From Phycisphaerae bacterium (GTDB lineage: Bacteria > Planctomycetota > Phycisphaerae > Phycisphaerales > UBA1924), in contig JAUIES010000002.1 of assembly GCA_030429705.1 (NCBI GenBank), positions 684,001-748,000 on the forward strand: 64,000 bases of DNA, in the 5' to 3' direction. Positions 10,567-33,098 of this stretch are shown piece after piece; the first letter of the stretch is position 1; the number at the start of each line of letters is the position of its first letter. The translations under genes and the position numbers were made by a program. Under the pieces are notes generated by a model. The model was not told where the DNA came from. It made no database searches and was given only the letters and a program-made list of their open reading frames with translations.

Positions 10567-10657
10567 TTTAAACCCCTTCAGTACACGCTCAACCAGAACA
10601 GCCGAGCTTGTTTTCGATACAACCTGTCGGTGCGCTCGCACTGACTTCAGGTACAAG

Positions 10658-10686
10658 ATTCTACCAGATTTTTGCCTGAAAGCCAA
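10658..10686 (-). promoter_or_regulatory. promoter of array copy 1
   Basis: On the minus strand TTGGCT (10686-10681) and TAGAAT (10663-10658) are separated by exactly 17 bases. The -10 differs from TATAAT by one base. It lies about 90 bases before the copy 1 start, the same distance as in the other copies, so copy 1 can be transcribed independently of copy 2. Confidence 0.6.
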
Positions 10687-10725
10687 ATTCTGAGCAAATT
10701 GCCCCAAATCGCCTCAGAGGCCGCC

Positions 10726-11790: not shown

Positions 11791-11894
11791 CCGGATCTCC
11801 TTCCCGGAAGTGAGCCCGCGAAAGGCTCAAGGTAAGCGTTTCAAACAGACTAACGAGTTCTGTCAGCCAGACGCCCAGAACGGGACGCAATCTC

Positions 11895-11923
11895 ATTGGA
11901 CCCGAATTGCATGGCTGTGTCAA
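11895..11923 (-). promoter_or_regulatory. promoter of array copy 2
   Basis: Minus-strand TTGACA and TCCAAT are separated by 17 bases, identical in both hexamers and spacing to the elements before copies 3, 4 and 5. The expected leader RNA is about 100 bases. The -35 is a perfect consensus; the -10 matches TATAAT at four of six positions. Confidence 0.75.
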
Positions 11924-11954
11924 CATTCAACCGTTTCACACGCTTCAAATGCCC

Positions 11955-11984
11955 ACAAAAAAACCCCGGCACGAAGCCGGGGCT
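11955..11984 (-). terminator. intrinsic terminator after array copy 3
   Basis: A GC-rich stem (CCCCGGC paired with GCCGGGG) encloses a five-base loop. On the minus strand it is followed by an uninterrupted run of seven T. It lies about 30 bases past the copy 3 stop. Confidence 0.92.
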
Positions 11985-12010
11985 CGGAAACCAAAGTGGT
12001 AGAAAAAAGA

Positions 12011-13081
12011 TTACGGACCTGTGGGCTGACCGGTGTTGATTTCGCCCCCGCCGTAGTCATTGCCCGCCAAGCCGCCGCGTGTGAAGCGGTAGCGAACCGG
12101 CAGAAGCTGATTCGGATCACCGATCGGATCGGGCTCTGTGCTCAACGGTGTGTACGGGTAGTACGAGGTATCGGCACTCGTCGGATTCCGCGGATCCCAA
12201 CCAAGGTTTGCATCGCCGCTGCTCTCGGCCCGCACGGATGAGTCAAAGAACAGCTGCTGGCAGTTTGCCTCGGCGTAGGCGTAGAACGGTGACTTGTTGC
12301 TGCCATGCCAATCGTTGTGCTCGAACATGAGCACCTTCTGACCAGCGAAGGTCACCTGGCTGTACTTGCGCTTGCCGTGGGCACCGGACACATTCACGAC
12401 ATAGAAAGTGTGCGAACTGACCGGGTTCGGATAGACATACGGGGTGCCGTTGATCTGACCATCGGGAGCCCAGACATAAGGGATCGTCTGATAGGACGAA
12501 CTGTACGGATAACGCTGACGCACGCGCGGATTCGCAAAGTGTGACTCGTTGTTGTAATCGCTCTGGCCGTGCCACAATGTGTCGTCATACGGATCCGCCT
12601 GCGAGAGCAGGAGTTCACGATCTTCGGGACACGATGCGATCTGCTCAGGCATCTGGCTTGACAGATAGTCGAACAGCACCAAGTGGTTGTACCGGCGATG
12701 CGGCATGGTCACCAGATTGTTGAGAATCTTGTTCGCACCGTTGATGCGACCGGTAATGCGACGCAGAATTTCAGTTTGCTGCCACATCGCAGCATCCATG
12801 TCATCCGGCAACGGATCTGGCGGGCTGACATACTCGCTCTCGATCGTCATGCCCTGTCGCCATGAGTACGAAGTAATCTTGTCCTCGTAATCAGCCGCAT
12901 ATGAGGCAGTTCCCACCCCCTGCTGCTTCATGTTCGACTTGCACACTGCAGCTCGACCCGCTTTACGGGCTTTCTGCAAAGCGGGCAAAAGGATTCCGAT
13001 CAACAGCGCGATAATCGCGATGACGACCAGCAACTCGATAAGTGTAAATCCAAATCTACGGCATTTCGCGGCATGTGCCAT
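12011..13081 (-). CDS. prepilin-type secreted protein, array copy 3
   Basis: This 356-residue paralogue starts at ATG with AAGGAG 6 bases upstream. The leader [11 protein letters not shown] precedes [16 protein letters not shown]. Conserved blocks in order are [94 protein letters not shown] and [22 protein letters not shown]. The region between ACPEDR-type and FEHNDWH blocks is the most variable part among copies, which would suit a surface-exposed face. It has its own promoter and terminator. Confidence 0.9.
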
Positions 13082-13186
13082 GCGCTTCTCCTTCTCGCAA
13101 TGGAACCCCGAACGAGTCCATATTTGTTGCGATCACCGATCAAGCCAGAGAACCCGGCCCAAACGCCCTGAACAGGACGCACCTCT

Positions 13187-13215
13187 ATTGGAACCTAATT
13201 TCTGGACGCTGTCAA
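13187..13215 (-). promoter_or_regulatory. promoter of array copy 3
   Basis: Minus-strand TTGACA and TCCAAT are separated by 17 bases. The element lies just downstream of the copy 4 terminator. The first 30 bases after the -10 resemble those of copy 2 (TGCGTCC, GTTC, GGGCGT in the same order), showing that the duplicated unit included the leader. Confidence 0.75.
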
Positions 13216-13227
13216 GCGCAAAGAAAA

Positions 13228-13250
13228 AGCCCCGGTGCAAAACCGGGGCT
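13228..13250 (-). terminator. intrinsic terminator after array copy 4
   Basis: The stem AGCCCCGGT/ACCGGGGCT has perfect nine-base arms and a five-base loop. On the minus strand it runs into TTTTTCTTTG. Confidence 0.92.
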
Positions 13251-13282
13251 TCTGACCTGTGTTCTGTATCCGTTCGTGTCTT

Positions 13283-14356
13283 TTATGGGCCAGTCGGTTG
13301 GCCGGTGTTGATTTCGCTGCCGCCGTAGTCGTTACCGGTCAGACCGCCACGAGTGAAACGGTAACGCACCGGAAGCAATTGCTCCGGGTCGCCGATCGGG
13401 TCCGGCTCGGTGCTCAAGGGCGTGTACTTGTAGTAGAAAGTATCCGCACTCGACGGGTTGCCAGGATCCCATCCCAGGTTCGAACTGCCGCTGTTTTCCG
13501 CACGGACCGACGAATCAAAAAACAACTGCTGGCATGATGCCTCGGCGTAGGCGTAGAACGGCGCCTTGTTGCTGCCGTGCCAATCGTTGTGTTCGAACAT
13601 CAACACTTTCTGTCCGGCAAAGGTGACTTCGCTGTACTTGCGCTTGCCATGGGCACCGTCCGTACGAATGACACCAAAGAGGTGTGATGTACGCTCGACG
13701 GGCTGAACATATGCGTTGTTGCCGAGCCTTCCATCCGGAGCCCAGACATTTGGGACCGTCTGATAGGATGAACTGAACGGGTAGCGCATCCGCACACGAA
13801 TGTTGCTGAATGACCCTTCGGTGTTGTAAGTGCTGGTCGTTGCCCAAAGCGATTCATTCAACGGATCACCCTGCGAAAAGAGCAACTCGCGATCTTCAGG
13901 GCATGCGGCGATTTGTTCGGGCATCTGACTCGAGAGATAATCGAACAAAACCAAGTGGTTGTATCGGCGGTGCGGCATCGTGGTGCGATTGTTTAGAATC
14001 TTGTGTTCACCATTCACACGCCCGGTGATACGCCGCAAGATCTCAGTCTGCTGCCACATGGCGGCTTCCATGTCGTCAGGAAAACCACCCGCCGGACCAC
14101 TCACAAAGTCATTGATCTTCACCATTCCTTGCCGCCACGAGTATGAAGTGATCTTGTCTTCATAGTCGGCGGCATACGAGGCGGTACCAACCCCGGTCTG
14201 TTTCAGATTCGACTTGCAGACCGCAGCCCGTCCGGCTTTGCGGGCCTTCTGCAGTGCTGGGAGCAATATGCCAATCAGCAGCGCGATGATCGCAATCACC
14301 ACCAGCAGTTCGATCAGCGTGAACCCAAAACGACGACGATTCGTCGAAACAACCAT
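13283..14356 (-). CDS. prepilin-type secreted protein, array copy 4
   Basis: This 357-residue paralogue starts at ATG 14356, which has AAGGGG 7 bases upstream; the ATG at 14374 would overlap that site. The leader [11 protein letters not shown] precedes [16 protein letters not shown]. The conserved blocks are the same as in copy 3, including [65 protein letters not shown] and [22 protein letters not shown]. It is closest to copy 3 in the first half and to copies 5/6 in the second half, suggesting past exchange between copies. It has its own promoter and terminator. Confidence 0.9.
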
Positions 14357-14456
14357 GCAAAATCCCCTTCGCATTGCGGGCTTGGAACAGCCCAGGGCAG
14401 GTCATGCTCGAATGAACCCCGCCCACTCGTTGATCGCCAGCATTGGCGTACAGCCT

Positions 14457-14485
14457 ATTGGACCGTCAAAACGCTTCTGTGTCAA
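14457..14485 (-). promoter_or_regulatory. promoter of array copy 4
   Basis: Minus-strand TTGACA and TCCAAT are separated by 17 bases, about 95 bases before the copy 4 start and immediately after the copy 5 terminator. Confidence 0.75.
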
Positions 14486-14495
14486 CCCCAAGTAA

Positions 14496-14520
14496 AAGCC
14501 CCGGCGTGGCGCCGGGGCTT
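14496..14520 (-). terminator. intrinsic terminator after array copy 5
   Basis: The perfect ten-base arms AAGCCCCGGC and GCCGGGGCTT enclose a five-base loop. On the minus strand the T-tract is short (CTTTTACTTG). Confidence 0.88.
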
Positions 14521-14552
14521 GAAAAGACGCATTGGACTGTCAGTCGAAGCGA

Positions 14553-15623
14553 TTATGGGCCGATGGGCTGACCTGTATTGACTTCACCGCCGCCGTAGTC
14601 GTTGCCAGCGAGGCCGCCACGGGTGAAACGATAACGGACGGGCAACAATTCGCTCGAGTCGCCGATCGGATCCGGTTCCGTGCTCAGCGGGGTGTAGCGG
14701 CTATAGAAGGTATCGGCGCTTGACGGATTTGATGGATCCCAGCCGAGGTTGGCGCTACCACTGTTTTCCGCTCGAACTGACGAATCAAAGAACAACTGCT
14801 GACAGGTCGCTTCGGCGTACGCATAGAACGGCGCCTTGTTGCTGCCATGCCAATCGTTGTGCTCAAACATCATGACCTTCTGACCAGCGAAGACCACCTG
14901 GCTGTACTTGCGCTTTCCGAATGCACCGTCAACATCGAGCGTGGTGAACAGGTGCGATGTGTTGGCAACTGGTGCAACATACGGAGTCGAGCCGACCTGG
15001 CCATCCGGTGCCCACATGTAAGGCACTGACTGATATGTGGAACTGAATGGGTAACGAACCGCGACACGAGGATTATCAAATCGGTTGTCCGCTCCGTAAT
15101 CGCCAGACCCAGCCCAGAGTGATTCGTCAAGTGGGTCACCCTGCGCCAGAAGCAACGCACGGTCTTCCGGGCAAGACGCGATCTGCTCGGGCAGCTGACT
15201 GGAAAGGTAATCGAAGAGGATCAGGTGATTGAACCGGCGATGCGGCATCGTCGCGGTGTTGTTTTGAATTCGATGGTCACCGCTATTGCGACCTGTGATG
15301 CGACGGAGGATCTCAGTCTGCTGCCACATCGCGGCCAGGATATCTCTATCAAATGGCACGGGCGGCGACACGAACTCCGTGTCTGGCTGCATGCCCGCAC
15401 GCCACGAGTACGAAGTGATCTTGTCTTCGTAGTCGGCGGCATAGGACGCCATCCCCACACCTTGCTGTTTCAGATTTGACTTGCAAACGGCAGCTCGGCC
15501 AGCTTTGCGTGCTTTCTGTAGCGCGGGGAGAAGAATGCCGATCAAGAGCGCGATGATCGCGATCACGACCAGCAATTCGATGAGCGTGAATCCGAATCGG
15601 CGAGGTTTTGTCGTGTTTACCAT
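14553..15623 (-). CDS. prepilin-type secreted protein, array copy 5
   Basis: This 356-residue paralogue starts at ATG with AAGGAG 6 bases upstream. The leader [11 protein letters not shown] precedes [16 protein letters not shown]. It shares all blocks with copies 3, 4 and 6: [104 protein letters not shown] and [23 protein letters not shown] 167-base stretch (14743-14909) differs from copy 6 at only one base. It has its own promoter and terminator. Confidence 0.9.
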
Positions 15624-15734
15624 TTACAACTCCTTCATGCGCACCCGGATTGACGACGATGCCGGGCGAGTACTGTATTTCGACACAATGTGGCCATTTG
15701 GATGAATGTCGAATCCAACCAAAAGGGGATGTCC

Positions 15735-15763
15735 ATTGGACACGAAAGGCGAGTGTATGTCAA
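15735..15763 (-). promoter_or_regulatory. promoter of array copy 5
   Basis: Minus-strand TTGACA and TCCAAT are separated by 17 bases, about 105 bases before the copy 5 start and just after the copy 6 terminator. Confidence 0.75.
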
Positions 15764-15776
15764 GTTTCTTGAAAAA

Positions 15777-15801
15777 AAGCCCCGACTGAGGGCCGGGGCT
15801 T
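15777..15801 (-). terminator. intrinsic terminator after array copy 6
   Basis: The stem AAGCCCCG/CGGGGCTT has eight-base arms and a nine-base loop. On the minus strand it continues into seven consecutive T from the stem base, then CAAG. Confidence 0.9.
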
Positions 15802-15831
15802 AAAAAACAGGATCTCGGACTTGCTTACAGA

Positions 15832-16917
15832 TTACGGTCCGACGGGCTGACCGGTGTTCACTTCGCCTCCGCCGTAGTCGTTGCCTGACAGGCCACCACG
15901 CGTGAAGCGGTAGCGGACGGGCAACATTTCGCTCGAGTCGCCGATCGGATCCGGTTCGGTGCTGATCGGTGTATAGCGGTAGTAGAAGGTGTCAGCGCTG
16001 GTTGGGTTGCCAGGGTCCCAACCGAGGTTGGCGCTACCACTGTTTTCCGCTCGAACTGACGAATCAAAGAACAACTGCTGACAGGTCGCTTCGGCGTACG
16101 CATAGAACGGTGCCTTGTTGCTGCCATGCCAATCGTTGTGCTCAAACATCATGACCTTCTGACCAGCGAAGACCACCTGGCTGTACTTCCGCTTACCGAA
16201 TGCACCGGGAGCGTTGAGCGTCACGAACAGGTGCGAAGTGTTGGCCACAGGCTGGACATATGCGGTACCGCCACTTCGTCCATCAGGAGCCCACATGTAG
16301 GGCACGGACTGATAGGTCGAACTGAACGGATAACGCATCGCAACGCGTTCGTTGTCAAATCGGCCGTCTGCACCGTAATCGCCTGAACCCGCCCAGAGCG
16401 ATTCGTCAAGCGGATCACCCTGTGCCAGAAGCAACGCGCGGTCTTCCGGACAGGCTGCGATCGCTTCGGGCAACTGACTTGAAAGGTAATCGAACAGAAT
16501 GAGATGGTTAAACCGACGGTGCGGCATGGTGTCGAGATTGTTCAGGATGCGATGGTCTCCACCATTGCGGCCCGTGATACGACGAAGGATCTCAGTTTGC
16601 TGCCACTGGGCTGCTGTGATGTCGTCGCCAAACGGTGCTGGCGGATTCACAAATTCATTGGCCGGTTGCATACCTTGACGCCATGAATAGGAAGTGATCT
16701 TGTCTTCGTAGTCGGCGGCATAGGAGGCCATGCCGACACCTTGCTGCTTCAGATTTGACTTACACACAGCGGCACGGCCGGCTTTGCGAGCCTTCTGCAA
16801 CGCAGGGAGGAGGATGCCGATCAGGAGCGCGATAATTGCGATCACGACCAGAAGTTCGATGAGTGTGAATCCGAGCACACGCTGCGGACCTCGTTGAGAC
16901 ACTTGCTTACTCGCCAT
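15832..16917 (-). CDS. prepilin-type secreted protein, array copy 6
   Basis: This 361-residue paralogue is the upstream end of the array. ATG 16917 has AAGGGG 8 bases upstream; the frame extends to 16977 but without a site. The leader is longer than in the other copies ([16 protein letters not shown]) before [16 protein letters not shown]. Conserved blocks match copy 5 closely, with [62 protein letters not shown] and [22 protein letters not shown]. Its upstream region lacks the TTGACA-N17-TCCAAT element of copies 2-5, so it may be regulated differently. Confidence 0.9.
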
Positions 16918-17299
16918 AAATGTCACCCCTTCTTTTGGATGATAAAGGAACGATGGAACTCGCTCACGATTGTTCACGCCGATGCCGCGAGAAGAACACC
17001 CGCTGCTTGACGCGTTATTGTACGGACAGAACCCGATGAGGTTCCACGACCCGGACCTTGATCAACAGAGTTGTTGAATCAAAATCGGTGCGATTGTACC
17101 CGGATGAACCCCTCGATCCAGTGCGCAAGATTAGCGCAATACTTCATTTACATCCGGGCACCAAACATATCCAGATCAAGTCTGTTCATTGCTCGGGTCA
17201 AACCGGTTGGAGACAAGCGACTCGGATTCGCTGGTCGATTCGCGATGTATCAGCTCGATTCACGAATCTTGATTCAAACGAGCAAAATTGAAACCTCGC
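16918..17299. other. intergenic region upstream of the array
   Basis: These 382 bases separate array copy 6 from the sugar transferase stop. TACAAT hexamers occur on the minus strand near 17021 and 17096, but neither has a convincing -35 at 16-18 bases. No supported open frame is present. A small palindrome overlapping the sugar transferase stop (17295-17307) could act as a weak terminator. Confidence 0.4.
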
Positions 17300-21721: not shown

Positions 21722-21852
21722 CGACGCTGCGACCGGGTGTCAGGCATTCATCCAACACTGAAGAGCCAATCGGACCGATACTATCCGAGCGTGCTGAACG
21801 CAGGCTTAGGTTCATGCCCGGTTGTGGCGCACTCGAACGGACGGAGAGATTC

Positions 21853-23856
21853 ATGCCCAGAGATATTCCGGTCGGCAACGGATCATTGCTGATCACTTTC
21901 GACGATCAGTACCATGTCCGTGATTTGTACTTTCCGAATGTCGGAAGACACAACCACACCGGCGGGCACATCCAACGCTTCGGAGTCTGGGCGGACGGGC
22001 AGTTTGCCTGGGTGGACGATGACAGCTGGACGCGTGAACTTCGCTATTTGCCCGACACATTGATCACCGAAGTGCGTCTTGTCAATGAAGAACTCGGGCT
22101 CGAGATCCTCTGCAATGATGCTGTGGATTTTCACGAACCGGTGTATTTTCGACGGTGCGCAGTCCGCGACCTGTTGGGCAAGCCGCGTGATGTTCGGCTG
22201 TTCTATCACATCGATCTGTCGATCAAGGGGTCAGTGGTCGGCGACACTGCAAACTATGACCCGCAGATGAACGCGGTCGTCCTGTACAAAGAAGACGCCT
22301 ATTTCCTTGTGAATGCCTGCGACCAGCATAAATGCGGGATCGATCACTGGGCGATCGGATCAAAGCGAATCAACGACGCTGAAGGCACCTGGCGTGACGC
22401 TGAAGACGGGCAACTCGGTCGCAACGCGATCAGCCAGGGATCGGTCGATGCCACGGTCGGGTTCAATCTGCAGTTGCAGGCCGATGGCGAGGGATTTGTC
22501 ACCAGTTGGATCGCATGCGGACACTCGTACGACGACATCAAGAAACTCAACCAGCGCATCCGTGAGAAGACACCTGAGCGCATGCTAGCCCGCACCGAAG
22601 CCTACTGGAGGTTATGGGCGCGCAAGGAAACGAGCGACACTTCCCCCCTCCCTGAACACATTCGAGATCAGTTTTACCGAAGTTTGCTGGTGGTGCGCAC
22701 ACAGATCGACAATGGTGGCGCCATCATCGCCGCCAACGACAGCGACATCACGCAGTTTGGCGGCGACAACTACAGTTACTGCTGGATGCGCGACGGCGCA
22801 CTTGTGGCGTATTCACTGATCCTCGCAGGTCAGAGTGAGTTGAGCCGCAGTTTCTTCAGGTTTGCTGCCGGTTGCATCGAAGACGAAGGGTACTTCCTGC
22901 ACAAGTACAACCCGCTCGGGCAATTGGCGTCCAGTTGGCATTCGTGGATGCTCGACGGGCAACGCGTCCTGCCGATTCAGCAGGATGAAACGGCATTGGT
23001 GCTGTGGGCACTGCGCAAGCACTTCGAGACATTCCGCGATGTCGAGTTTGTCAAGCCGCTCTATAGCAAACTGATCGCTCGGCCGGCAGAGTGGATGCTC
23101 AAGTACCGCGACCACCACGGGCTGCCGCAGCAGTCCTGGGACTTGTGGGAAGAACGACGCGGTGTCCACACTTTCACCGTCGCATCCACAATTGGAGCGT
23201 TGCGTGCCGCTAGCTTGTTCGCCGGTGATTTCGGTGAGCCCGACCGCGAAGCCCAGTTCCGTGAAGCGGCCGACCGCATGTTGGGTGCGATGCGCAGACA
23301 CCTCTGGCACGAAGACCATCAGCGGTTTGCACGAATGGCAATCCCGCTCGACGATGGGTCATACCGCCTGGATCTGACAGCAGACTCTGCAAATTACGCA
23401 CTGTTCGCGATTGCCGGACTCGATCCACGCGACAGCATGGTCATGGCGGAAATGGACCGGTTACGCGAACGGCTGTGGGTGCAGACTGATGTTGGTGGCT
23501 TCGCCCGTTACGAGCACGACTATTACCACCAGGTCGAATCAAATGACATCGAACGCGTTCCCGGCAATCCGTGGGTGATCTGCACACTGTGGCAAGCGCA
23601 ATACCTCATCGCGCGCGCACGGACCATGCCCGAGTTGCGTCAGGCGCTGCCTTTGATTGAGTGGGCTGTCGAGCGAGCGAATATCTCGGGCATTCAGGCG
23701 GAGCAATATCATCCGCACACGGGTGCTCCGATCAGTGTCAGTCCGCTCACCTGGAGCCACTCCACTTATGTGGTGGCATGTATCGAATACATGAACAAGT
23801 TCAATGAGATTCGCAACGAACAGCAATCAGGCATCGATGCGGATGTCAGTATTTGA
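21853..23856 (+). CDS. glycoside hydrolase family 15 protein (glucoamylase/trehalase-like)
   Basis: This 667-residue cytoplasmic protein starts at ATG 21853 with GGAG 6 bases upstream; an ATG 39 bases earlier lacks a site. Residues 1-260 form the beta-sandwich domain (IPVGNGSLLITFDD, VRDLYFPNVG). The (alpha/alpha)6 catalytic domain follows, with YSYCWMRDGALVAYSL at 307-322 and SWDLWEERRGVHTFT at 428-442, where E433/E434 are the likely general acid. LTWSHSTYVV occurs near the end. GH15 enzymes release glucose from alpha-glucans, or split trehalose in some bacteria; the exact substrate cannot be read from sequence. There is no signal peptide, so an intracellular substrate such as glycogen, maltodextrin or trehalose is likely. 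It is followed at 390 bases by a GH1 gene. Confidence 0.9.
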   Translation: MPRDIPVGNGSLLITFDDQYHVRDLYFPNVGRHNHTGGHIQRFGVWADGQFAWVDDDSWTRELRYLPDTLITEVRLVNEELGLEILCNDAVDFHEPVYFRRCAVRDLLGKPRDVRLFYHIDLSIKGSVVGDTANYDPQMNAVVLYKEDAYFLVNACDQHKCGIDHWAIGSKRINDAEGTWRDAEDGQLGRNAISQGSVDATVGFNLQLQADGEGFVTSWIACGHSYDDIKKLNQRIREKTPERMLARTEAYWRLWARKETSDTSPLPEHIRDQFYRSLLVVRTQIDNGGAIIAANDSDITQFGGDNYSYCWMRDGALVAYSLILAGQSELSRSFFRFAAGCIEDEGYFLHKYNPLGQLASSWHSWMLDGQRVLPIQQDETALVLWALRKHFETFRDVEFVKPLYSKLIARPAEWMLKYRDHHGLPQQSWDLWEERRGVHTFTVASTIGALRAASLFAGDFGEPDREAQFREAADRMLGAMRRHLWHEDHQRFARMAIPLDDGSYRLDLTADSANYALFAIAGLDPRDSMVMAEMDRLRERLWVQTDVGGFARYEHDYYHQVESNDIERVPGNPWVICTLWQAQYLIARARTMPELRQALPLIEWAVERANISGIQAEQYHPHTGAPISVSPLTWSHSTYVVACIEYMNKFNEIRNEQQSGIDADVSI

Positions 23857-24247
23857 ACGACGACACGGAATCTGCGATCTGTCGCCCGTGTAAACGGAAG
23901 ATTGGCCACATCGGTAGCCGATGCACCGAGCGCGGTCGTGCCCACACTTTGAGCGGAATCCACACCGCGCGTCGCCTCAATTCTGGTTGAAGCATGTGAC
24001 CCAAGAGCAGCATTCTCGTTGTAAGCGTGACCCGTTGCCAGGTTTGGCACGCATCTCTTGGCCTCGGTTGCCACGCTCTCGAGGAGTACGCCGGCCGCAA
24101 CATGGTCGTGTAGGGGTCACTCGCAAGCACGCCGAGAGCGGGCTTTGGTTGCCAATCAGCGAAACAGTTTCTCTCCCTGATCTGCCTGCGTAACATGGTC
24201 CTCGCCGTTCGTGAACTGCTTTTTCTGGACTCGCCTGGAGGCTGTCT
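23857..24247. other. intergenic region, no gene seen
   Basis: These 391 bases separate the GH15 and GH1 genes. Open frames of 90-116 codons occur on both strands but have no ribosome-binding site or family motif and look like chance frames in GC-rich DNA. I see no RNase P, tmRNA or SRP RNA signature. The right end holds the GGAGG site of the next gene; a promoter is likely but not identified. Confidence 0.4.
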
Positions 24248-25621
24248 TTGTCATTTCCTCGTCAATTTGTTTGGGGCACCGCTTCGGCTTCGTATCAAGT
24301 CGAAGGCGCCGCCGACCGGGATGGTCGTTCGCCATGCGTCTGGGACGACTTTGCAGCCACGCCAGGGAAGACCTTTGACGGGCACGACGGCTCGCTCGCT
24401 TGCGGCAGCTACGACCGACCCGAAGACGATGCCGATCTTATCGCGGGCCTCGGTGCGACCGCCTATCGGTGTTCGATCGCCTGGCCTCGCGTTTTGCCTG
24501 ATGGCACGGGGCCTCGGAATGAAGCCGGGTTGGCGTACTACGACCGACTTGTCGATGCCTTGCTTGCCAGGAACATCGACCCGTGGGTGACGCTGTTCCA
24601 TTGGGACATGCCTTCGTGTCTTCAACAGCGTGGAGGTTGGCTGAATGCCGCCTGTTCTGATTGGTTTGCTGAGTACACCCAAGCCGTCGTTGATCGGCTT
24701 TCTGATCGCGTGACCCACTGGTTCACACTGAACGAGCCACAGATCTTCATAGGGCTCGGGCACGAGTCAGGCACCCATGCGCCGGGCTTGCAATTATCAC
24801 GGCGTGAGTTGTTGCTTGCTTCACATCATGCCCTCCTCGCGCACGGCAAATCAGTGCAAGTCATTCGCGCACATGCGAAGCAGCCCCCCCGGGTCGGTTG
24901 CGCTCCGGTCGGACAGATGTTTGTGCCAGCCTCGGATCGCCCTGAAGATGTCGAAGCGGCTCGCACGGCAACATTCAAAGTCCCCACAGAAAACTGGACA
25001 TTCAACCTGGCTTGGATGTGTGACCCGATGCTGCGCGGGCACTATCCCGATGATGGCGTGGAACAGTTTGGCGATGACATGCCGGCGTGGACCGAGTCAG
25101 ACATGGCCACGATCTGTCAACCCCTCGACTTCTTTGGCGTGAACATCTATCACGCTGACATCGTCCGCGCAGGGCCAGAGGGCCCGGAACGCGTTGAGCG
25201 ACCACGCGGGTACCCAATCACCATGTTCCGCTGGCCGATCCAGCCGGACTCCCTGTACTGGGGACCGAAGTTTCTCCATGAACGGTACAAGTTGCCTGTG
25301 GTCATAACGGAAAACGGGCTTGCATCGATGGATTGGAAGCACGCGGATGGCAAGATCCACGATCTTGGTCGCATTGACTTCCTGACCCGGCACCTGCACC
25401 AACTTCGACGCGCCATCGACGATGGTGTCGATGTCCAGGGGTACTTCCATTGGTCCATCATGGACAACTACGAATGGGCGGAGGGATACGCACTTCGGTT
25501 CGGGCTGGTGTACCTTGACTACACGACGATGCAACGGCTGCCGAAGGAGTCGTACCACTGGTATGCCAAGATTATTCAGAGTCGCGGCGAAGTGATTCCA
25601 ACGACGCTCGAACCACTCTAG
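24248..25621 (+). CDS. beta-glucosidase, glycoside hydrolase family 1
   Basis: This 457-residue GH1 enzyme has the usual length. It opens FPRQFVWGTASASYQVEGA, the GH1 N-terminal signature. The acid/base Glu is E163 in TLNEP, and the nucleophile is E355 in ITENG; YFHWSIMDNYEWAEGY near the C-terminus completes the sugar-binding site. The start is TTG with GGAGG 5 bases upstream and no nearby ATG in frame. It hydrolyses beta-linked disaccharides or aryl glucosides in the cytoplasm. With the preceding GH15 enzyme and the following fructosamine kinase it forms a small carbohydrate-metabolism run on the plus strand. Confidence 0.94.
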   Translation: MSFPRQFVWGTASASYQVEGAADRDGRSPCVWDDFAATPGKTFDGHDGSLACGSYDRPEDDADLIAGLGATAYRCSIAWPRVLPDGTGPRNEAGLAYYDRLVDALLARNIDPWVTLFHWDMPSCLQQRGGWLNAACSDWFAEYTQAVVDRLSDRVTHWFTLNEPQIFIGLGHESGTHAPGLQLSRRELLLASHHALLAHGKSVQVIRAHAKQPPRVGCAPVGQMFVPASDRPEDVEAARTATFKVPTENWTFNLAWMCDPMLRGHYPDDGVEQFGDDMPAWTESDMATICQPLDFFGVNIYHADIVRAGPEGPERVERPRGYPITMFRWPIQPDSLYWGPKFLHERYKLPVVITENGLASMDWKHADGKIHDLGRIDFLTRHLHQLRRAIDDGVDVQGYFHWSIMDNYEWAEGYALRFGLVYLDYTTMQRLPKESYHWYAKIIQSRGEVIPTTLEPL

Positions 25622-25707
25622 TGTGGGGTGGTGTCGTGACGTTTGCGATGGGTTGAACGAGAGCGTGTCGTCATGTCGATGTCACGACGCTCAAGGTGGA
25701 GCAGTGC

Positions 25708-26613
25708 ATGTCGCAATCGATGCCCGATCGAATTCGAGACCTGGTATCTGATATCGACGATCGCCGACGCGTGCAGTCGATGAGCGAAATTTCATCTGAT
25801 GGCGTGCAATGCGTGCTGAGCGTCATGCTCGACGATGGATGCCAGATGGTCGCCAAGTGTGTTGGTGAATCTGCGCATGACCGTTTGGTTGCAGAAGCCG
25901 ACGGGCTAGCTGCATTGGGGGCTGACGGAAAAATCGTTGTGCCACGCGTTTACACGCTTCGCACGATCACAGGCTGGTCTGTGCTTCTCATGGACGCAAT
26001 GCCGGCGATCGGTGGTGTGGGTTCGCCCGAAGATGCCTGGGCCGAGTTTGGGCGGCAACTGGCTCGGCATCATCAATCCAGTTGCGGCGGTCAATATGGG
26101 TGGTGGCGCGACAACTACATCGGAGCCACCGCGCAGATCAACAGTTGGTGCGACGATTGGGTGGCGTTCAACGCGGAACACCGGCTCGGGTTTCAGACTC
26201 GGCTGGCCCGAAGTCAAGGACTTCTTACGCGAGTTGAATCGGACCTCGTCGTTCGTGTGATTGATCGTCTCGACGAGTTTTTGCCGCGCCGGCCCCACCC
26301 TTCACTTCTGCATGGCGATTTGTGGTCGGGCAATGCACTATCAACGCAACGCGATGGCGGCGCTGTCGTCGCAGTGATTGACCCGGCGGTTTCAATCGGC
26401 GATGGCTGGGCTGACATTGCCATGATGAAACTCTTCGGCGGATTCCCTTTGGCCTGTTTCCGAGCCTACGCCGAGGTCGTCCGCGAGCCCGATGATCTCG
26501 ATCGACGGCTGCGCGTGTACCAACTCTATCACTTGCTCAATCATCTCAACCTGTTCGGGCGGGGCTACGCCGGCTCGGTCACATCGATCGTGCAAAGCCT
26601 GCTTTCATTGTGA
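25708..26613 (+). CDS. fructosamine kinase family protein
   Basis: This 301-residue kinase-like protein starts at ATG 25708 with GGAG 6 bases upstream; a GTG 12 bases earlier is less likely. It has the protein-kinase-like fold of fructosamine-3-kinases: MVAKCV carries the ATP-binding Lys (residue 50), LARHHQ and GWWRDNYIGATAQINSWCDDW are family stretches, and LLHGDLWSGN (about 201-209) is the catalytic loop, followed by VVAVIDPAVSIGDGWADIA with the metal-binding Asp. Such enzymes phosphorylate fructosamines or ribulosamines on glycated proteins or small molecules so that they fall off. It fits beside enzymes that release free glucose. Confidence 0.9.
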   Translation: MSQSMPDRIRDLVSDIDDRRRVQSMSEISSDGVQCVLSVMLDDGCQMVAKCVGESAHDRLVAEADGLAALGADGKIVVPRVYTLRTITGWSVLLMDAMPAIGGVGSPEDAWAEFGRQLARHHQSSCGGQYGWWRDNYIGATAQINSWCDDWVAFNAEHRLGFQTRLARSQGLLTRVESDLVVRVIDRLDEFLPRRPHPSLLHGDLWSGNALSTQRDGGAVVAVIDPAVSIGDGWADIAMMKLFGGFPLACFRAYAEVVREPDDLDRRLRVYQLYHLLNHLNLFGRGYAGSVTSIVQSLLSL

Positions 26614-26749: not shown

Positions 26750-27955
26750 ATGAGACGCCGCGCTGCTATTGTTGCTGCTGTTCGCACACCGATCGGTCGA
26801 TTTGGTGGTGCACTTGCAGCGGTCCGACCTGACGATCTTGCGGCCGTTGTGATCCGTTCGCTCGTCGAACGATCGGGCATCGAGTCTGCACTTATCGACG
26901 ATGTCTATTTCGGTGCTGCCAACCAGGCCGGGGAAGACAATCGTAATGTCGCGCGCATGGCGGCGCTTCTGGCAGGGCTACCGGCAAGTGTTCCGGGGGC
27001 GACGGTCAACCGGCTTTGTGCGTCCGGTTTGGAAGCGGTCAATATCGCAGCCCGGATGATCGAGTCCGATTGCGGTGATGTGATCATCGCGGGCGGCGTT
27101 GAGTCGATGAGCCGAGCGCCGTATGTCTTGAGCAAGGCCGACCGGGCGTTCGGACGCGACCAGGCAATATTCGACACTTCGATTGGCTGGCGGTTCGTGA
27201 ACCCGAAACTCGCTGCGCTGCATTATCCGTACGCGATGGGAGAGACCGCTGAGAATGTGGCGCGAGAGCACGGCGTTGATCGGCAAGCGCAGGACAATTT
27301 TGCCCTTCGCAGCCAACAGCGCTGGGCGGCAGCACACGCAGCCGGGCGATTCGCCGATGAGGTCGTGCCGGTCGAAGTACAACAGGGCCGAAATGGGTCG
27401 GTCTTCGTCGAGATCGATGAACACCCCCGCCCGGACACAACGCTCGAAAAACTTGCTCAACTCCGCCCGGCATTTGCGAAGGACGACCAAGGGACTGTGA
27501 CGGCTGGCAACTCGTCCGGGATCAATGACGGAGCGGCCGCCCTGCTATTGGTCGAAGCCGAACGGGCCGCGGCACTCGGGCTCAAACCGCTGGCGTTTGT
27601 CGGTCCGAGTGCGGCTGCGGGCGTTGACCCGGCCTACATGGGACTCGGACCGATCCCGGCGGTTCGGAAAGCGCTCAAACGGGCAGGGCTCTCGATCGGT
27701 GATGTTGGTCGATATGAAATTAACGAAGCGTTTGCCGCCCAGGCGGTGGCGTGTCAGCGCGAACTCGGTATTGACGATGAGAATCTGAATGTCAACGGTG
27801 GCGCGATCTCGATTGGTCACCCACTCGGGTGCAGCGGAGCGCGCCTCGCAGCAACGCTCGTCCATGAAATGGTGCGGACCGAGACCGATCGCGGTGTCGC
27901 ATCGTTGTGCGTCGGTGTCGGACAAGGGCTGGCAACAGTGTTCGCACGCGATTGA
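26750..27955 (+). CDS. thiolase, PcaF-like (3-oxoadipyl-CoA thiolase / acetyl-CoA acyltransferase)
   Basis: This 401-residue degradative-type thiolase has nucleophile C90 in NRLCASG, H357 in GHPLGCSG, and C387 in SLCVGVGQG. The stretches ANQAGEDNRNVARMAALLAG, FDTSIGWRFVNP and DEHPRPDTTLEKLA are characteristic of 3-oxoadipyl-CoA thiolases (PcaF/PaaJ type), although acetyl-CoA acetyltransferases share parts of them. It cleaves a 3-oxoacyl-CoA with CoA to acetyl-CoA and a shortened acyl-CoA. The gene is alone on its strand; the upstream site is weak. Its stop lies 18 bases from the convergent operon that encodes a 3-oxoacid CoA-transferase, so it is the natural next enzyme. The substrate preference is inference. 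Confidence 0.92.
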   Translation: MRRRAAIVAAVRTPIGRFGGALAAVRPDDLAAVVIRSLVERSGIESALIDDVYFGAANQAGEDNRNVARMAALLAGLPASVPGATVNRLCASGLEAVNIAARMIESDCGDVIIAGGVESMSRAPYVLSKADRAFGRDQAIFDTSIGWRFVNPKLAALHYPYAMGETAENVAREHGVDRQAQDNFALRSQQRWAAAHAAGRFADEVVPVEVQQGRNGSVFVEIDEHPRPDTTLEKLAQLRPAFAKDDQGTVTAGNSSGINDGAAALLLVEAERAAALGLKPLAFVGPSAAAGVDPAYMGLGPIPAVRKALKRAGLSIGDVGRYEINEAFAAQAVACQRELGIDDENLNVNGGAISIGHPLGCSGARLAATLVHEMVRTETDRGVASLCVGVGQGLATVFARD

Positions 27956-27973: not shown

Positions 27974-29293
27974 TCACTCCATCGAAGCAATCTTTGCGAA
28001 ACCTGATTCCATGCCTGCAATGAGTTGGTCGATTTCAGACTCCGTCATCGGTGTCGAAAGCGCGGCTGTGCAGGTGTTGATCATGATAAAACCTTCATCG
28101 AACAGATGATCGAGTAACACTTTGAGTCGCCTGTTTTCAGCTTCACTGGCATACGCCTCGCGAAAGTTGCGAGGGTGATCGGGCTTCATGTGAACACGAA
28201 ACATCGACCCCCCTCCAGTGACGCAGGCTTTGGCCCCGGTCGACTCGATTGCTTCATTGATCCCATGCATAGCGCGAGATGTGAGCGCGTTTAGTCGTGC
28301 CACCGCTTGTTCGTCAAAGAGCTCCATTGCCGTAAGGCCTGCAGTCGTACTGATCGGGTTCGCTGAAAAGGTTCCCGAATGCGGGAAGAGATAATGGTCG
28401 CCGCGCGGGTTCATGACATCCATGACTTCGGTGCGGCCGGCCAGCACGCCGACGGGAAAACCGCCACCGATCATCTTACCAAGCGCTGTCAAATCCGGTG
28501 TGACACCGATATGGGTCTGCAAACCGCCGTAGGCCGATCGAAAAGTTATAACCTCGTCGAGCACGAGCAAAGCGCCGTGGCGTGTTGTCCAGTCGCGCAG
28601 AGCGTTCACAAATGCGGGGCTCGCAGGCGACAGTCCGACGCGGTGCGGCATGAGATCGATGAGTACACAAGCGAGATCGTCGGTGTGCTCGTCGAGAATT
28701 GCGAGCGATTTCTCTACATTGTTGAATGGAAGCACCACCACTTCGTCCAGCGCTGAGTGAGGGGTCCCATGAACGAGGGGAACGCTGCGAGGCCGGTCGA
28801 CATCGCCCCAGGTCTCGGGCACCGGGGCCTGACTGATCTCGGCATAGTCGTAACCGCCATGATAAGCGCCTTCAACCTTGGCCACCTTGGGTCTGCCGGT
28901 GAATGCGCGGGCCGCCTTGAGTGCAGCCATGAGCGCTTCTGTGCCGGAATTGACAAATCGAAGTTTCTCAAAGCCGGGGCACCGTGCACACAAATGCTCC
29001 GCATAGCTGACCTCAGTCTCGGTCGCCATCATGAAAGCGGTGCCTTTGGCGAGTTGCTCGCTGACGGCTTGCGTGATCGCAGGGTGCGCGTGCCCGTGAA
29101 TGAGTGAGCACATATTGTTCGAGAAGTCGATTCGCTCAACCCCCTCAATATCAATCACGCGACATCCTTCGCCACGATCGGCGTAGGCTGGATGCGGGGC
29201 GCGAAGGACGGTGTTGCGGCTCACGCCGCCCGGCATGACACGCTGGGCACGCTCAAAGAGATCAGCGCTGCGCGAAGTCACAGTATTTTTCAT
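27974..29293 (-). CDS. class III aminotransferase, GSA-aminomutase/beta-transaminase type
   Basis: This 439-residue PLP enzyme starts at ATG 29293 with AGGA 8 bases upstream. It opens with the GSA-aminomutase pattern RVMPGGVSRNTV. INNM-type FSNNMCSLIHGHAHP, FVNSGTEALMAALKAARAFTG, AYHGGYDYAE, DEV at 246-248 and LGKMIGGGFPVG with PLP Lys273 follow. Both glutamate-1-semialdehyde aminomutase (HemL) and the beta-amino-acid transaminases look like this; ICD-type HemL residues differ and the operon context (aminomutase, 3-oxoacid CoA-transferase) favours a beta-transaminase rather than heme synthesis. It is the last gene of the operon, 22 bases after the CoA-transferase B subunit. I assign the family with confidence, the substrate only tentatively. 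Confidence 0.88.
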   Translation of the reverse strand: MKNTVTSRSADLFERAQRVMPGGVSRNTVLRAPHPAYADRGEGCRVIDIEGVERIDFSNNMCSLIHGHAHPAITQAVSEQLAKGTAFMMATETEVSYAEHLCARCPGFEKLRFVNSGTEALMAALKAARAFTGRPKVAKVEGAYHGGYDYAEISQAPVPETWGDVDRPRSVPLVHGTPHSALDEVVVLPFNNVEKSLAILDEHTDDLACVLIDLMPHRVGLSPASPAFVNALRDWTTRHGALLVLDEVITFRSAYGGLQTHIGVTPDLTALGKMIGGGFPVGVLAGRTEVMDVMNPRGDHYLFPHSGTFSANPISTTAGLTAMELFDEQAVARLNALTSRAMHGINEAIESTGAKACVTGGGSMFRVHMKPDHPRNFREAYASEAENRRLKVLLDHLFDEGFIMINTCTAALSTPMTESEIDQLIAGMESGFAKIASME

Positions 29294-29315: not shown

Positions 29316-29993
29316 TCAGGTCGAAAGTGTGGATTCCGGCGTTGGAAGCAATTGTGCACCCGTGCGATTCTGGACGAAATCTAAATCAATTCCAGGGTTC
29401 AGTTCGACAAGCCGAAAGCCCTCGGGTGTGACATCGATCACAGCAAGATCTGTATACACACGGTTGACAACTCGAGCACCCGTCAACGGATAGGTGCACG
29501 ATTCAACCAATTTGGGCTCACCTGTCTTTGTCGTGTGCTGGGTGATGACATAAATGGCTTTCACGCCTGCGACGAGATCCATCGCTCCCCCCACCGCGGG
29601 AATAGCATCGGGCTCACCGGTTGACCAGTTTGCCAGGTCGCCGTTCTGAGCAACTTGCAACGCTCCGAGCACGCACAGATCGAGGTGCCCGCCCCGGATC
29701 ATCGCGAAACTGTCTGACTGGTGGAAAAACGACGCGCCAGGATTGGCTGTGACATGTCGCTTACCCGCGTTGATCAGTTCGGGATCGCCATCGTCCGATT
29801 CCGGTGATGGGCCCATGCCGAGCAGTCCGTTTTCGGTGTGGTACACCAGTTCGCGGCCTTGCGGTACAAACCGGGCCACGAGTTCCGGGATACCGATGCC
29901 CAGGTTTACATACGAGCCGTCAGGAATATCTTGGGCAACGCGTCTTGCCATGTCTTCGCGTGTCCAGCCAACATTGGAAGGTGCGTCACTCAT
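29316..29993 (-). CDS. 3-oxoacid CoA-transferase subunit B
   Basis: This 225-residue protein is the catalytic subunit of a family I CoA-transferase. The active-site Glu is E54 in YHTENGLLGMGP; NLGIGIPELVA and GGAMDLVAGVKAIYVITQH, then CTYPLTG, are typical of ScoB/PcaJ/AtoA. The enzyme moves CoA from a donor such as succinyl-CoA to a 3-oxoacid (acetoacetate, 3-oxoadipate or similar) through a glutamyl-CoA intermediate. Its ATG overlaps the stop of subunit A by 4 bases (ATGA), so the two are translationally coupled as usual. Confidence 0.93.
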   Translation of the reverse strand: MSDAPSNVGWTREDMARRVAQDIPDGSYVNLGIGIPELVARFVPQGRELVYHTENGLLGMGPSPESDDGDPELINAGKRHVTANPGASFFHQSDSFAMIRGGHLDLCVLGALQVAQNGDLANWSTGEPDAIPAVGGAMDLVAGVKAIYVITQHTTKTGEPKLVESCTYPLTGARVVNRVYTDLAVIDVTPEGFRLVELNPGIDLDFVQNRTGAQLLPTPESTLST

Positions 29994-30700
29994 GGGTAGG
30001 TTGCTCCCGCTGCGATGAGCGCGGATTCGTGCGCCGGCGACATCACCGTCACGATGCGGTCGACGAAAATGCCAGGTGTCACGACCACTTCAGGATCGAT
30101 CGACCCTGGTTCAACGACCTGTTCGACCTGCACGATGGTTGTCTCACCGGCCATTGCCATGATCGGCGAAAAGTTCCGTGCGGTCTTGTTGAAAACAACA
30201 TTACCGTGGGAATCCGCCCGGCGTCCCTTGATGAGTGTCACATTGGCGCGCAGGCCGTACTCAAGCACATAGGATCGACCATCAAACTCACGGCACTCCT
30301 TGCCATCGCCGAGCGGTGTCCCGACTGCGGTCGGCGTATAGAACGCTGGAATCCCCGCCCCCCCCGCTCGAATGCGCTCGGCGAGTGTGCCCTGTGGTAC
30401 AAGTTCGAGAGCCGTTCGTCCGCTGCGATAGAGTTCCGGAAACACCGTCGAGTTGGCGGTGCGTGGGAATGAACAGATCACCTTGGATACGCGACCGGCT
30501 TTGAGAAGGGCCGCGAGCCCGACCTCGCCAGAACCGCAGTTATTGCTGATAATGGTCAGGTTGGTTGCACCGGTGTCGATGAGCGCATGGATGAGTTCGA
30601 TCGGGCTGCCGGCTTCACCGAACCCACCGACCATCACGGTCGAGCCGTCGCGGATATCCGCGAGCGCTTCTGCGGCGCTTTCGACCCGCTTGTCGATCAT
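29990..30700 (-). CDS. 3-oxoacid CoA-transferase subunit A
   Basis: This 236-residue protein contains DGSTVMVGGFGEAGSPIELI, the N-terminal signature of family I CoA-transferase A subunits. TIISNNCGSGEVGLAALL, GTLAERIRAGGAGIPAFYT and RRADSHGNVVFNKTARNF follow. ATG at 30700 overlaps the KamA stop as ATGA, and is preferred over the GTG two codons upstream. With subunit B it forms a complete 3-oxoacid CoA-transferase (ScoAB/PcaIJ type). The position directly between an aminomutase and an aminotransferase gene is what makes the operon unusual. Confidence 0.93.
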   Translation of the reverse strand: MIDKRVESAAEALADIRDGSTVMVGGFGEAGSPIELIHALIDTGATNLTIISNNCGSGEVGLAALLKAGRVSKVICSFPRTANSTVFPELYRSGRTALELVPQGTLAERIRAGGAGIPAFYTPTAVGTPLGDGKECREFDGRSYVLEYGLRANVTLIKGRRADSHGNVVFNKTARNFSPIMAMAGETTIVQVEQVVEPGSIDPEVVVTPGIFVDRIVTVMSPAHESALIAAGATYP

Positions 30701-32163
30701 CGACACATCCCGCCGGTTTGCGGCATTGAACTGATCCCTGCAGGCTTACCCGAACTGGTGACGCGGGTGTAATCAAACAGTCCCGCTTCGTCGAACAACA
30801 CACGGTCTTCGTAATCATCAAACCACAGGGCATCTGGGTTGCGACCCACGATGCACACCTTCGAGAGATGAGGAGCGTCCGCTGCATTGCGGAGCAGTTT
30901 GAAGATCACGACGCCATTCTCAGCACCCTTGAGACCCTTGATCGGCTCGTTGGTGACAGCGGCGACTTCAGTCTTGCCGCGATAGTGCGTGATCGACAAT
31001 CGCGCGTGTTTTTCAACGCCTGAAAGCCCCTTCTGCGAATTATTGAGAATGTTCCACGCTTTCTCGATCGGAATGTTGAATGCCTTGTATGCGACGATGT
31101 CGCGGCCACAGAAGAAATAGTGGTTCTCACCACCGATCCGCTTGAACTCACGCTGCAAAATGCGCAGTGCGTCCGAATCGTCATTGATGCCGCGAATGAT
31201 GGGTGCCTGATTCTGCACCGTCAGCCAACCTCTGTTGACGAGGCCGCGCATCGCGGCTCCGGTTTCGGGAACCCACTGCAGGAACCCCTGCTCATTGCGA
31301 ATGTATTCGCCGTTGTCATCTTTGGCGAGGAACTCGTCGGGGTGCTCGAAGTGGAGCATCATGTTGAGCCCGACCTCGGGGTATGCCTCATGGAATCGAT
31401 CGAGCATTTCGAGGAAGGTGCGATCGAACCTTTGCGGATAGAACGCCATTTCCTTGGTTCCAATTCGGATTGTTTCGATGCCCGATTCAGCGAGCGCTGC
31501 AAGCCACGCGGCGATCTTGCCGTTGTTGAGCACCATCGGATCGCCGCCGGAGAGCAGAATCTCGCGGAGTTTTTCTCGACCTGATTCTGGGTGCAAGCCG
31601 CCGTTGCGTTCGACCGCTTCGTTGTGTTCGCGAATGTATTGTGTGATCTCCGGGATCTTGGCGAGGTCTTTCTTTTTGACCGTCCCGTCCTGCCGCTCGA
31701 TCTCTTTCCGTGCGATCAGTTCCTCGCGGTAACAGAATCGGCAGTGAGCCGAGCAGGTTGAGACGACATACATCAAGCCCATCTCGTACTTGTGCAGCAA
31801 CCCTTCGACCGGGCTGTAGTCCATCTGGTTACCCGGGTCTTCCGAACCTTCGAGGTTTTCTGTTTCATCCGGACTTGCTTTGACCAGACGCTGGATGGAG
31901 GGGCTGTTTTTAGCGAGGTTGTAGTAGTGTCGCGTGATCTTCACGGGCATGCGCGACTCGACATCGCGATCGGTGCCCTTGAGTTGGCGGAGGCTGACGA
32001 CCTCGTCCTTGGTGTAGAAACTGAGCATGTCCTCCGGCGCCTTTTCGTTGATGAATGGCGCCAGCCCATTGATGATTTCTCGCTGATACTTGGACTCTTC
32101 AACCTTTTCGAGGAAGACCCGCTCGCGGTCGGTCTGGGCATACTCGTGCTGTTTCTGGATCAT
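30697..32163 (-). CDS. KamA-family radical SAM aminomutase
   Basis: This 488-residue protein starts at ATG 32163 with GGAG 6 bases upstream; the frame is open to 32253. The radical SAM cluster motif CSAHCRFC has Cys at 137, 141 and 144. LLSGGDPMVLNN, RIGTKEMAFYPQRF, LTVQNQAPIIRGIND and GKTEV with the presumed PLP Lys397 follow, as in lysine 2,3-aminomutase. It is longer than classical KamA (about 416 residues), with a 110-residue N-terminal part and an acidic insert in the middle. In a by-eye alignment the two aspartates that bind the lysine side chain become R354 and H393, so the substrate may not be lysine. KamA enzymes swap the alpha-amino group to the beta carbon using PLP and a 4Fe-4S/SAM radical. 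It heads a four-gene operon. Confidence 0.88.
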   Translation of the reverse strand: MIQKQHEYAQTDRERVFLEKVEESKYQREIINGLAPFINEKAPEDMLSFYTKDEVVSLRQLKGTDRDVESRMPVKITRHYYNLAKNSPSIQRLVKASPDETENLEGSEDPGNQMDYSPVEGLLHKYEMGLMYVVSTCSAHCRFCYREELIARKEIERQDGTVKKKDLAKIPEITQYIREHNEAVERNGGLHPESGREKLREILLSGGDPMVLNNGKIAAWLAALAESGIETIRIGTKEMAFYPQRFDRTFLEMLDRFHEAYPEVGLNMMLHFEHPDEFLAKDDNGEYIRNEQGFLQWVPETGAAMRGLVNRGWLTVQNQAPIIRGINDDSDALRILQREFKRIGGENHYFFCGRDIVAYKAFNIPIEKAWNILNNSQKGLSGVEKHARLSITHYRGKTEVAAVTNEPIKGLKGAENGVVIFKLLRNAADAPHLSKVCIVGRNPDALWFDDYEDRVLFDEAGLFDYTRVTSSGKPAGISSMPQTGGMCR

Positions 32164-32267: not shown

Positions 32268-33098
32268 ATGTCAGTTGAGGATCTCATCGCCGATGTCGGA
32301 GACCGACTGACCCCGACCGAGCGCAGAATTGCCGAAACAGTGTCAGGAGATCCGACTCTGCTGGCGTTCGGGACCGTTTCGGACCTTGCCGAGCGCGCCA
32401 GGACGAGTCGACCCTCGATCGTCCGGTTTGCGACCAAACTCGGATTCTCGGGCTATGCCGAGTTGCAAGGCTGGGTCCGCGATGGGGTTTCGCGCAGACT
32501 CTCACGCCCCAGCGAACGCATTCGCAGACGCTCAGACGCAGATGAAAATGTCAGGCCGGATATCGAAGCCGCCGTGCAACATGTCTTTGAAGCGCTCGAC
32601 ACCCAGCGGTTGCCCGCGATGGCAGCTCCGTTGGTCAGCGCTCGTCGAGTGTGGGTGCTTTCCGGCGAGACATCCACGGGCGGGGCCCGAGTATTGCAAA
32701 GCGGGCTTTCGATGATTCGGCCAGATGTCCTGCTGGTTCATGATCAATCCGTGGGACGCGACCTGAGTGGCGCTGCCCCCGGCGACGCTGCGGTCGTTTT
32801 TGACTTTGCCCGGTACCGTCGCAGTTGTGTGACCGCGGCTCGAACACTTGCTGACCTAGGTGTCACGATCATCGCGATCACCGATGGACCGTTGTCCCCG
32901 CTTGCGTCGTTGACCAAACTCTGGTGTGAACTTCGCATCCCTGCGGTCGGGCCGTTTGACAGTTCTGTCCCCGCGGTCATCGCAGCCGAGTTACTCATCG
33001 CACAGGTCGTCAGCGACCTCGGCGACAGCGCTCGCGATCGCATCGATCAACTCGAGACACTGTGGCAAGCCACCGGGACATTCTTTAACGACGATTGA
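32268..33098 (+). CDS. MurR/RpiR family transcriptional regulator
   Basis: This 276-residue regulator starts at ATG with GAGG 7 bases upstream. Residues 1-75 form the HTH_6 domain (LTPTERRIAETVSGDP, SDLAERARTSRPSIVRFATKLGFSGYAEL). Residues 110-255 form a SIS domain (RRVWVLSGETSTGGARVLQ, GDAAVVFDFARYRR, VTIIAITDGPLSPLA). Family members usually sense phosphosugars through the SIS domain. It is divergent from the aminomutase operon across a 104-base region, the usual arrangement for a local regulator, so it probably controls that operon; the ligand may not be a sugar. DS replaces the typical SGxS phosphosugar loop, which is worth noting. Confidence 0.88.
   Translation: MSVEDLIADVGDRLTPTERRIAETVSGDPTLLAFGTVSDLAERARTSRPSIVRFATKLGFSGYAELQGWVRDGVSRRLSRPSERIRRRSDADENVRPDIEAAVQHVFEALDTQRLPAMAAPLVSARRVWVLSGETSTGGARVLQSGLSMIRPDVLLVHDQSVGRDLSGAAPGDAAVVFDFARYRRSCVTAARTLADLGVTIIAITDGPLSPLASLTKLWCELRIPAVGPFDSSVPAVIAAELLIAQVVSDLGDSARDRIDQLETLWQATGTFFNDD

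Follow-up and report, generated by a model that had tools for sequence, protein, structure and literature searches.

What reaction is catalysed by a KamA-type protein that resembles lysine 2,3-aminomutase (LAM) in its catalytic motifs, falls far below the curated cut-offs of the aminomutase models closest to it, and is encoded in a row with a CoA-transferase and an aminotransferase? The gene, which we call KamL (a label coined in the present analysis), lies in a stretch of 64,000 nucleotides of Phycisphaerae bacterium DNA, hereafter the window, from an assembly of 3.49 Mb in 8 contigs in which it is the sole KamA-type gene detected. An initial annotation, made from the DNA letters only, had described a KamA-family enzyme with altered side-chain-binding residues that would favour an acidic side chain. 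We consider it likely that KamL is a 2,3-aminomutase acting on an acidic substrate and that it stands at the head of a catabolic cassette passing through a beta-keto acid, the members of which are given in Table 1.

Table 1. KamL, its cassette partners and the adjoining regulator (positions in the window).
Gene	Predicted product	Position	Strand	Remark
KamL	divergent KamA-type radical SAM, PLP-dependent candidate 2,3-aminomutase	30697..32163	minus	488 aa
CTA	CoA-transferase subunit A, PcaI/ScoA family	29990..30706	minus	342.8 bits (cut-off 128.5)
CTB	CoA-transferase subunit B, PcaJ/ScoB family	29316..29993	minus	294.8 bits (cut-off 243.55)
AT3	class III (HemL-like) aminotransferase, candidate beta-amino acid transaminase	about 27974..29293	minus	closest solved relative 6K8H
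PcaF-like thiolase	3-oxoadipyl-CoA thiolase, PcaF-like	26750..27955	plus, convergent with the operon	550.9 bits (cut-off 597)
RpiR/HexR-type regulator	HTH_6 + SIS regulator	32268..33098	plus, divergent from KamL	

The KamL ORF is real, its reading frame being kept in more than 100 relatives. Among NCBIfam models its best match is TIGR00238, with 97.5 bits for a curated cut-off of 199.2, and the specific models also stay below threshold: arginine 2,3-aminomutase (94.7 bits, cut-off 600), glutamate 2,3-aminomutase TIGR04368 (80.3 bits, cut-off 650), EpmB (79.8 bits, cut-off 369.3) and AblA, the lysine 2,3-aminomutase model TIGR03820 (75.7 bits, cut-off 525.4). By sequence, the sole PDB relative is the lysine 2,3-aminomutase 2A5H (E 1.3e-14; profile E 4e-16). 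The same structure came out on top in Foldseek (E 2.4e-10, TM 0.45-0.53) with an AlphaFold2 model which, built from 24 close homologues, is itself weak (pLDDT 63, residues 351-363 and 381-488 below 50).

Active-site residues were compared in a MAFFT alignment of KamL with LAM-like proteins, EpmB-like proteins and two further KamA-like clades, labelled here QGRP and VERD after their motif. As the HMM alignment of KamL with 2A5H stopped short of the C-terminal half, two planctomycete lysine 2,3-aminomutases scoring above the TIGR03820 cut-off (L114 and L115) served as the AblA reference instead; the LAM residues concerned are numbered Arg134, Asp293, Asp330, Gly333 and Lys337. The assignment to the KamA type stands: the radical SAM motif CxxxCxxC (C137/C141/C144) is invariant in the 30 aligned KamL relatives, as are K397 and R146, which align with the PLP lysine K337 and the alpha-carboxylate arginine R134 of LAM. 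Two stretches, HYFFCGRDI (H348-I356) and THYxGKT (T392-T398), are kept in 30/30 sequences, including a Mesorhizobium protein at 64-66% identity; they hold R354 (CGRDIVAYKAF) and H393 (THYRGKTEV), which the initial annotation had numbered correctly and which are invariant in this set.

Those two residues had been proposed to replace the two aspartates that bind the lysine side chain in LAM, and one of the two proposals survives the alignment with the above-cut-off LAMs. R354 falls without gaps on Asp293, anchored on both sides by YYLYQ/HYFFC and FRTP/FNIP; a one-residue shift placing D355 on the LAM Asp, raised at the time as a caveat, is unsupported, the QGRP clade having Pro there. H393, on the other hand, was mispaired: the SG...GK stretch measures 16 residues against 17, so that the Asp330 column is empty in KamL, next to S390, leaving this residue without any counterpart, while H393 is matched with Gly333 in the PLP loop, which is rich in glycine. 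This loop, GGGGK in LAM, reads HY(R/K)GK in KamL, the His being found at the same position in the QGRP clade. The C-terminal zinc-site cysteines of LAM are missing from KamL in the same alignment, which also shows inserted segments near residues 157-196 and 280-298 of KamL that LAM lacks. Both lysine-binding aspartates are lost in KamL.

R354 is not peculiar to KamL. The LAM Asp293 position holds Asp in all LAM-like and EpmB-like rows sampled and Arg in all KamL, QGRP and VERD rows, so that the Arg marks a wider group rather than KamL by itself; its presence in these uncharacterised clades counts against the reading of KamL proposed below. In a tree of 58 KamA-type proteins, KamL forms a separate clade (support 100/100) on a long stem of 2.63 changes per column, and groups with QGRP and VERD at 100/99, apart from LAM and EpmB-like sequences; long branches meet in this tree, and the order inside the Arg group is unsure. 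The QGRP sequences (L027, L029, L113, L153-L156) come from planctomycetes and Paenibacillus, the VERD sequences (L028, L030, L141-L152) from planctomycetes, and we know of no characterised member of either clade.

Gene context tells more about the function of KamL than its residues do. In the window, the KamL, CTA, CTB and AT3 genes overlap or touch, CTA starting inside the 3' end of KamL and sharing 4 bases with CTB. Conservation was counted over 80 KamL loci from GTDB genomes, with the loci having enough flank as denominators: CTA comes after KamL in 78/78, CTB is present in 72/72 and AT3 in 66/66, followed by the PcaF-like thiolase (50 of the 61) and the RpiR regulator (45 of the 68), which probably controls the cassette. 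The order KamL-CTA-CTB-AT3 is near-universal in Planctomycetota and in metagenome-assembled genomes (MAGs) labelled Verrucomicrobiota and Acidobacteria. Carriers are chiefly Phycisphaerae; the others are MAGs labelled Spartobacteria/Verrucomicrobiota, Acidobacteria or Alphaproteobacteria, and one Mesorhizobium plasmid. Neighbour clustering at the KamL loci gave no other conserved partner, save a divergent SCP2-type thiolase lying upstream in four Verrucomicrobia-labelled loci (L045, L064, L091, L092). In L092, a 3.2 kb insertion separates CTA from CTB.

Membership of the PcaIJ/ScoAB family does not by itself fix the substrate of CTA/CTB. The closest plasmid relatives of CTA are 60-63% identical to it, and three of the four viewed lie in CTA-CTB-pcaF operons; a Tistrella relative has no adjoining pcaF. 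The cassette thiolase has PcaF (TIGR02430) as its nearest NCBIfam model, with a score below the cut-off (Table 1), and is 56% identical to the PcaF of a protocatechuate operon. Contacts with the acyl tail in P. putida PcaF are made by T143-G146, R148 and, from the neighbouring subunit, R65 (PMC7337054); R148, R65, G146 and the catalytic C90 are kept in 52/52 cassette thiolases, and T143 in 49 of them. One has to keep in mind that PcaF-type thiolases tolerate other acyl chains, the PcaF tunnel taking C6-C8 and longer (PMC7337054).

Among PDB entries, AT3 finds its nearest relative in 6K8H, the structure of StoTA, a characterised beta-transaminase from Sphaerobacter (PMC10589169). With StoTA, VpAT (4AO9) and Kat, a HemL-like enzyme of Cloacamonas proven to be the beta-transaminase of a CoA ester (PMC3149608), it shares the HemL-like class III fold and a conserved arginine for the substrate carboxylate; it would differ from all three in its predicted substrate, 3-aminoadipate, taken as the free acid or as the CoA ester. 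This arginine, in the PGGxxR motif, is R48 (numbered from an upstream GTG start), invariant in 68/68 and equivalent to R36 in StoTA (PMC10589169) and to R41 in VpAT. Since Kat acts on a CoA ester, AT3 may transaminate before or after CoA activation. Transaminases of the StoTA type accept beta-leucine (PMC10589169).

The Mesorhizobium case is a variation on this cassette. Downstream of KamL (66%) on plasmid MesoLj113b2 of Mesorhizobium sp. 113-3-3 come FdxA, a ferredoxin, then an orthologue of AT3 (62%) and the two subunits of a CoA-transferase from a different subfamily, which the A subunit of planctomycetes matches at 27% identity over 89 aa. Its A and B subunits are 83% and 79% identical to a pair encoded between pcaG and pcaF in Chelatococcus, and a Methylocella pca operon holds another counterpart (78.5% for the B subunit); these protocatechuate operons read pcaCHG-CTA-CTB-pcaF. 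The plasmid's A gene (L031:12101-13060) is unannotated and split across three frames, by recent decay or by sequencing error, and this cassette copy may have decayed; the evolutionary association stands despite the broken frame. Two different 3-oxoadipate-type CoA-transferases accompanying the same mutase and transaminase argue for a 3-oxoadipate intermediate and, thus, for 2-aminoadipate as the starting compound.

We therefore propose, with about even confidence, that KamL, using radical SAM chemistry and PLP, is a 2,3-aminomutase whose substrate is a dicarboxylic amino acid, L-2-aminoadipate being the likeliest. The choice of 2-aminoadipate over glutamate, which the initial annotation had left open, is one to which the context points, its basis being the gene neighbours and not the active-site residues alone; the acidic substrate is retained, as a conserved Arg replaces Asp293 and the neighbours independently call for an acid, but H393 as an equivalent of Asp330 no longer contributes to it. 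As in LAM, a 5'-deoxyadenosyl radical and an azacyclopropylcarbinyl intermediate on PLP would serve to carry the amino group of the KamL substrate from C2 to C3, with R146 binding the alpha-carboxylate and R354, standing in for the two LAM aspartates, the carboxylate of the side chain. The route would then run from 2-aminoadipate to 3-aminoadipate, 3-oxoadipate, 3-oxoadipyl-CoA and finally succinyl-CoA plus acetyl-CoA, so that 2-aminoadipate, the product of several lysine-degradation routes, could enter the lower beta-ketoadipate pathway without aromatic chemistry. Each of these catalytic steps, the substrate and the direction are predictions, drawn from observed homology, residues and gene linkage. 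That this amounts to a new activity, L-2-aminoadipate 2,3-aminomutase, and to an undescribed route joining lysine/2-aminoadipate breakdown to the beta-ketoadipate pathway is put forward tentatively, at slightly under an even chance. A literature search, outside which most subscription journals lay, returned no description of such an enzyme or pathway, and no paper naming 3-aminoadipate or relevantly joining aminoadipate with a radical SAM aminomutase.

Genome surveys bear on this proposal in both directions. An intradiol dioxygenase match was found in only 4 of 26 KamL-positive relatives (in the genome of the window the match is partial), which argues that aromatics are not the usual source and that the cassette is no general appendage of aromatic breakdown. 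Lysine 6-aminotransferase, an enzyme on the way to 2-aminoadipate, occurs in 4/26 KamL-positive against 0/75 KamL-negative relatives (Fisher p = 0.004, uncorrected, with three upstream families tried), a fifth genome, KamL-negative and with a much weaker match (235 bits), being left out of the count. The strong matches to TIGR03251 (L-lysine 6-transaminase) are confined to G011, G052, G070 and G074, all KamL-positive; three exceed the cut-off and one reaches 504.7 bits for 520.8, and none of these genes is linked to the cassette. Most KamL-positive genomes are without this enzyme, which counts against the 2-aminoadipate reading. As for the other upstream sources, PF16653 shows no association with KamL (p = 0.8) and LodA is absent from the genomes surveyed. 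That no dedicated 2-aminoadipate source is linked to the cassette likewise speaks against 2-aminoadipate, and so does the lack of the PcaF-like thiolase from the fetched flank of three of the four Verrucomicrobia-labelled loci inspected.

Glutamate is the main rival substrate. KamL would then represent a new lineage of glutamate 2,3-aminomutases, and glutamate would pass through 3-aminoglutarate, 3-oxoglutarate and 3-oxoglutaryl-CoA to malonyl-CoA and acetyl-CoA. Always available, glutamate needs no upstream pathway, in keeping with the finding that no source gene is linked to the cassette, and the acidic side-chain pocket predicted from R354 would suit it; yet KamL scores about 80 bits against the 650 demanded by TIGR04368, and the downstream enzymes are 3-oxoadipate-like in both lineages, including the pca-operon CoA-transferase in Mesorhizobium, so that we hold glutamate to be unlikely. 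That KamL is an aminomutase whose substrate is neutral, branched or longer in its chain, such as leucine or 2-aminopimelate, seems to us improbable: the cassette would be a general route from an amino acid through a beta-keto acid to acetyl-CoA and an acyl-CoA shortened by two carbons (n-2), for which the four enzyme classes would suit any chain, the PcaF tunnel takes C6-C8 and longer, and StoTA-type transaminases act on beta-leucine, but the invariant R354 of KamL and the thiolase R148/R65 suit a terminal carboxylate, and the Mesorhizobium CoA-transferase is of the pca type.

The remaining two readings concern KamL itself. We give a low probability, similar to that of the neutral substrate, to another radical SAM/PLP reaction (another migration, a racemisation or an elimination, for example) whose product the cassette would handle; the long stem and the insertions listed above leave room for it, as do the other Arg-type KamA-like clades, none characterised to our knowledge, against which one has to set the retention of the catalytic Lys, the Arg134 equivalent and the radical SAM motif, and the beta-transaminase-like partner in every locus. 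Most improbable of all is that KamL does act on lysine as a 2,3-aminomutase and supplies a beta-lysine route comparable to that of the Bacillus yodT-yodS-yodR-yodQ-yodP-kamA set, in which KamA has a class III aminotransferase and both subunits of a CoA-transferase as partners. The similar composition of that operon and the fold and cofactors that KamL appears to share with LAM favour it; the missing lysine-binding aspartates and zinc-site cysteines, the low TIGR03820 score and the acyl-tail arginines that the thiolase keeps from PcaF all go the other way.

Returning to the 2-aminoadipate reading, the known LAM-type radical aminomutases, NCBIfam model names included, act on lysine, arginine, glutamate or a lysine on EF-P. 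KamL is like LAM (KamA/AblA; 2A5H, its best structural match) in the radical SAM motif, K397 and R146, but unlike it at Asp293, Asp330, the PLP loop and the zinc cysteines. Glutamate 2,3-aminomutase presumably has Lys and Asn in place of the two LAM aspartates, with Lys at the Asp293 position; KamL would resemble it in having a basic residue there, but with Arg rather than Lys, a gap rather than the presumed Asn at the second site, and 3-oxoadipate-type enzymes as partners. The cassette shares with the lower beta-ketoadipate pathway (PcaIJ, PcaF; CatIJ-type CoA-transferase) its CoA-transferase and thiolase families and the acyl-pocket residues, but its input would come from aminomutase and aminotransferase steps and not from ring cleavage, most carriers being without intradiol dioxygenase. 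If the proposal is true, the LAM-type aminomutases would gain a new class of substrates through a member specific for dicarboxylates and served by its own downstream pathway, and a gene set conserved in more than 70 mostly uncultured genomes, now annotated simply as lysine 2,3-aminomutase or hypothetical protein, would be explained. It would also provide a concrete test of whether, in this family, a single exchange of Asp for Arg decides which side-chain charge is accepted, and a functional hypothesis for the QGRP and VERD clades.

Two other regions of the window deserve mention. At 21814-26613 (+), just before the PcaF-like thiolase, a GH15-like glucoamylase, a GH1 beta-glucosidase and a fructosamine kinase stand in a row; the last was considered as a fructoselysine link and rejected, as it is not conserved next to KamL elsewhere. 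At 9541-16977 (-), a run of six paralogous ORFs, each about 350-390 aa long and all with the same prepilin-like N-terminus, represents a local tandem expansion.
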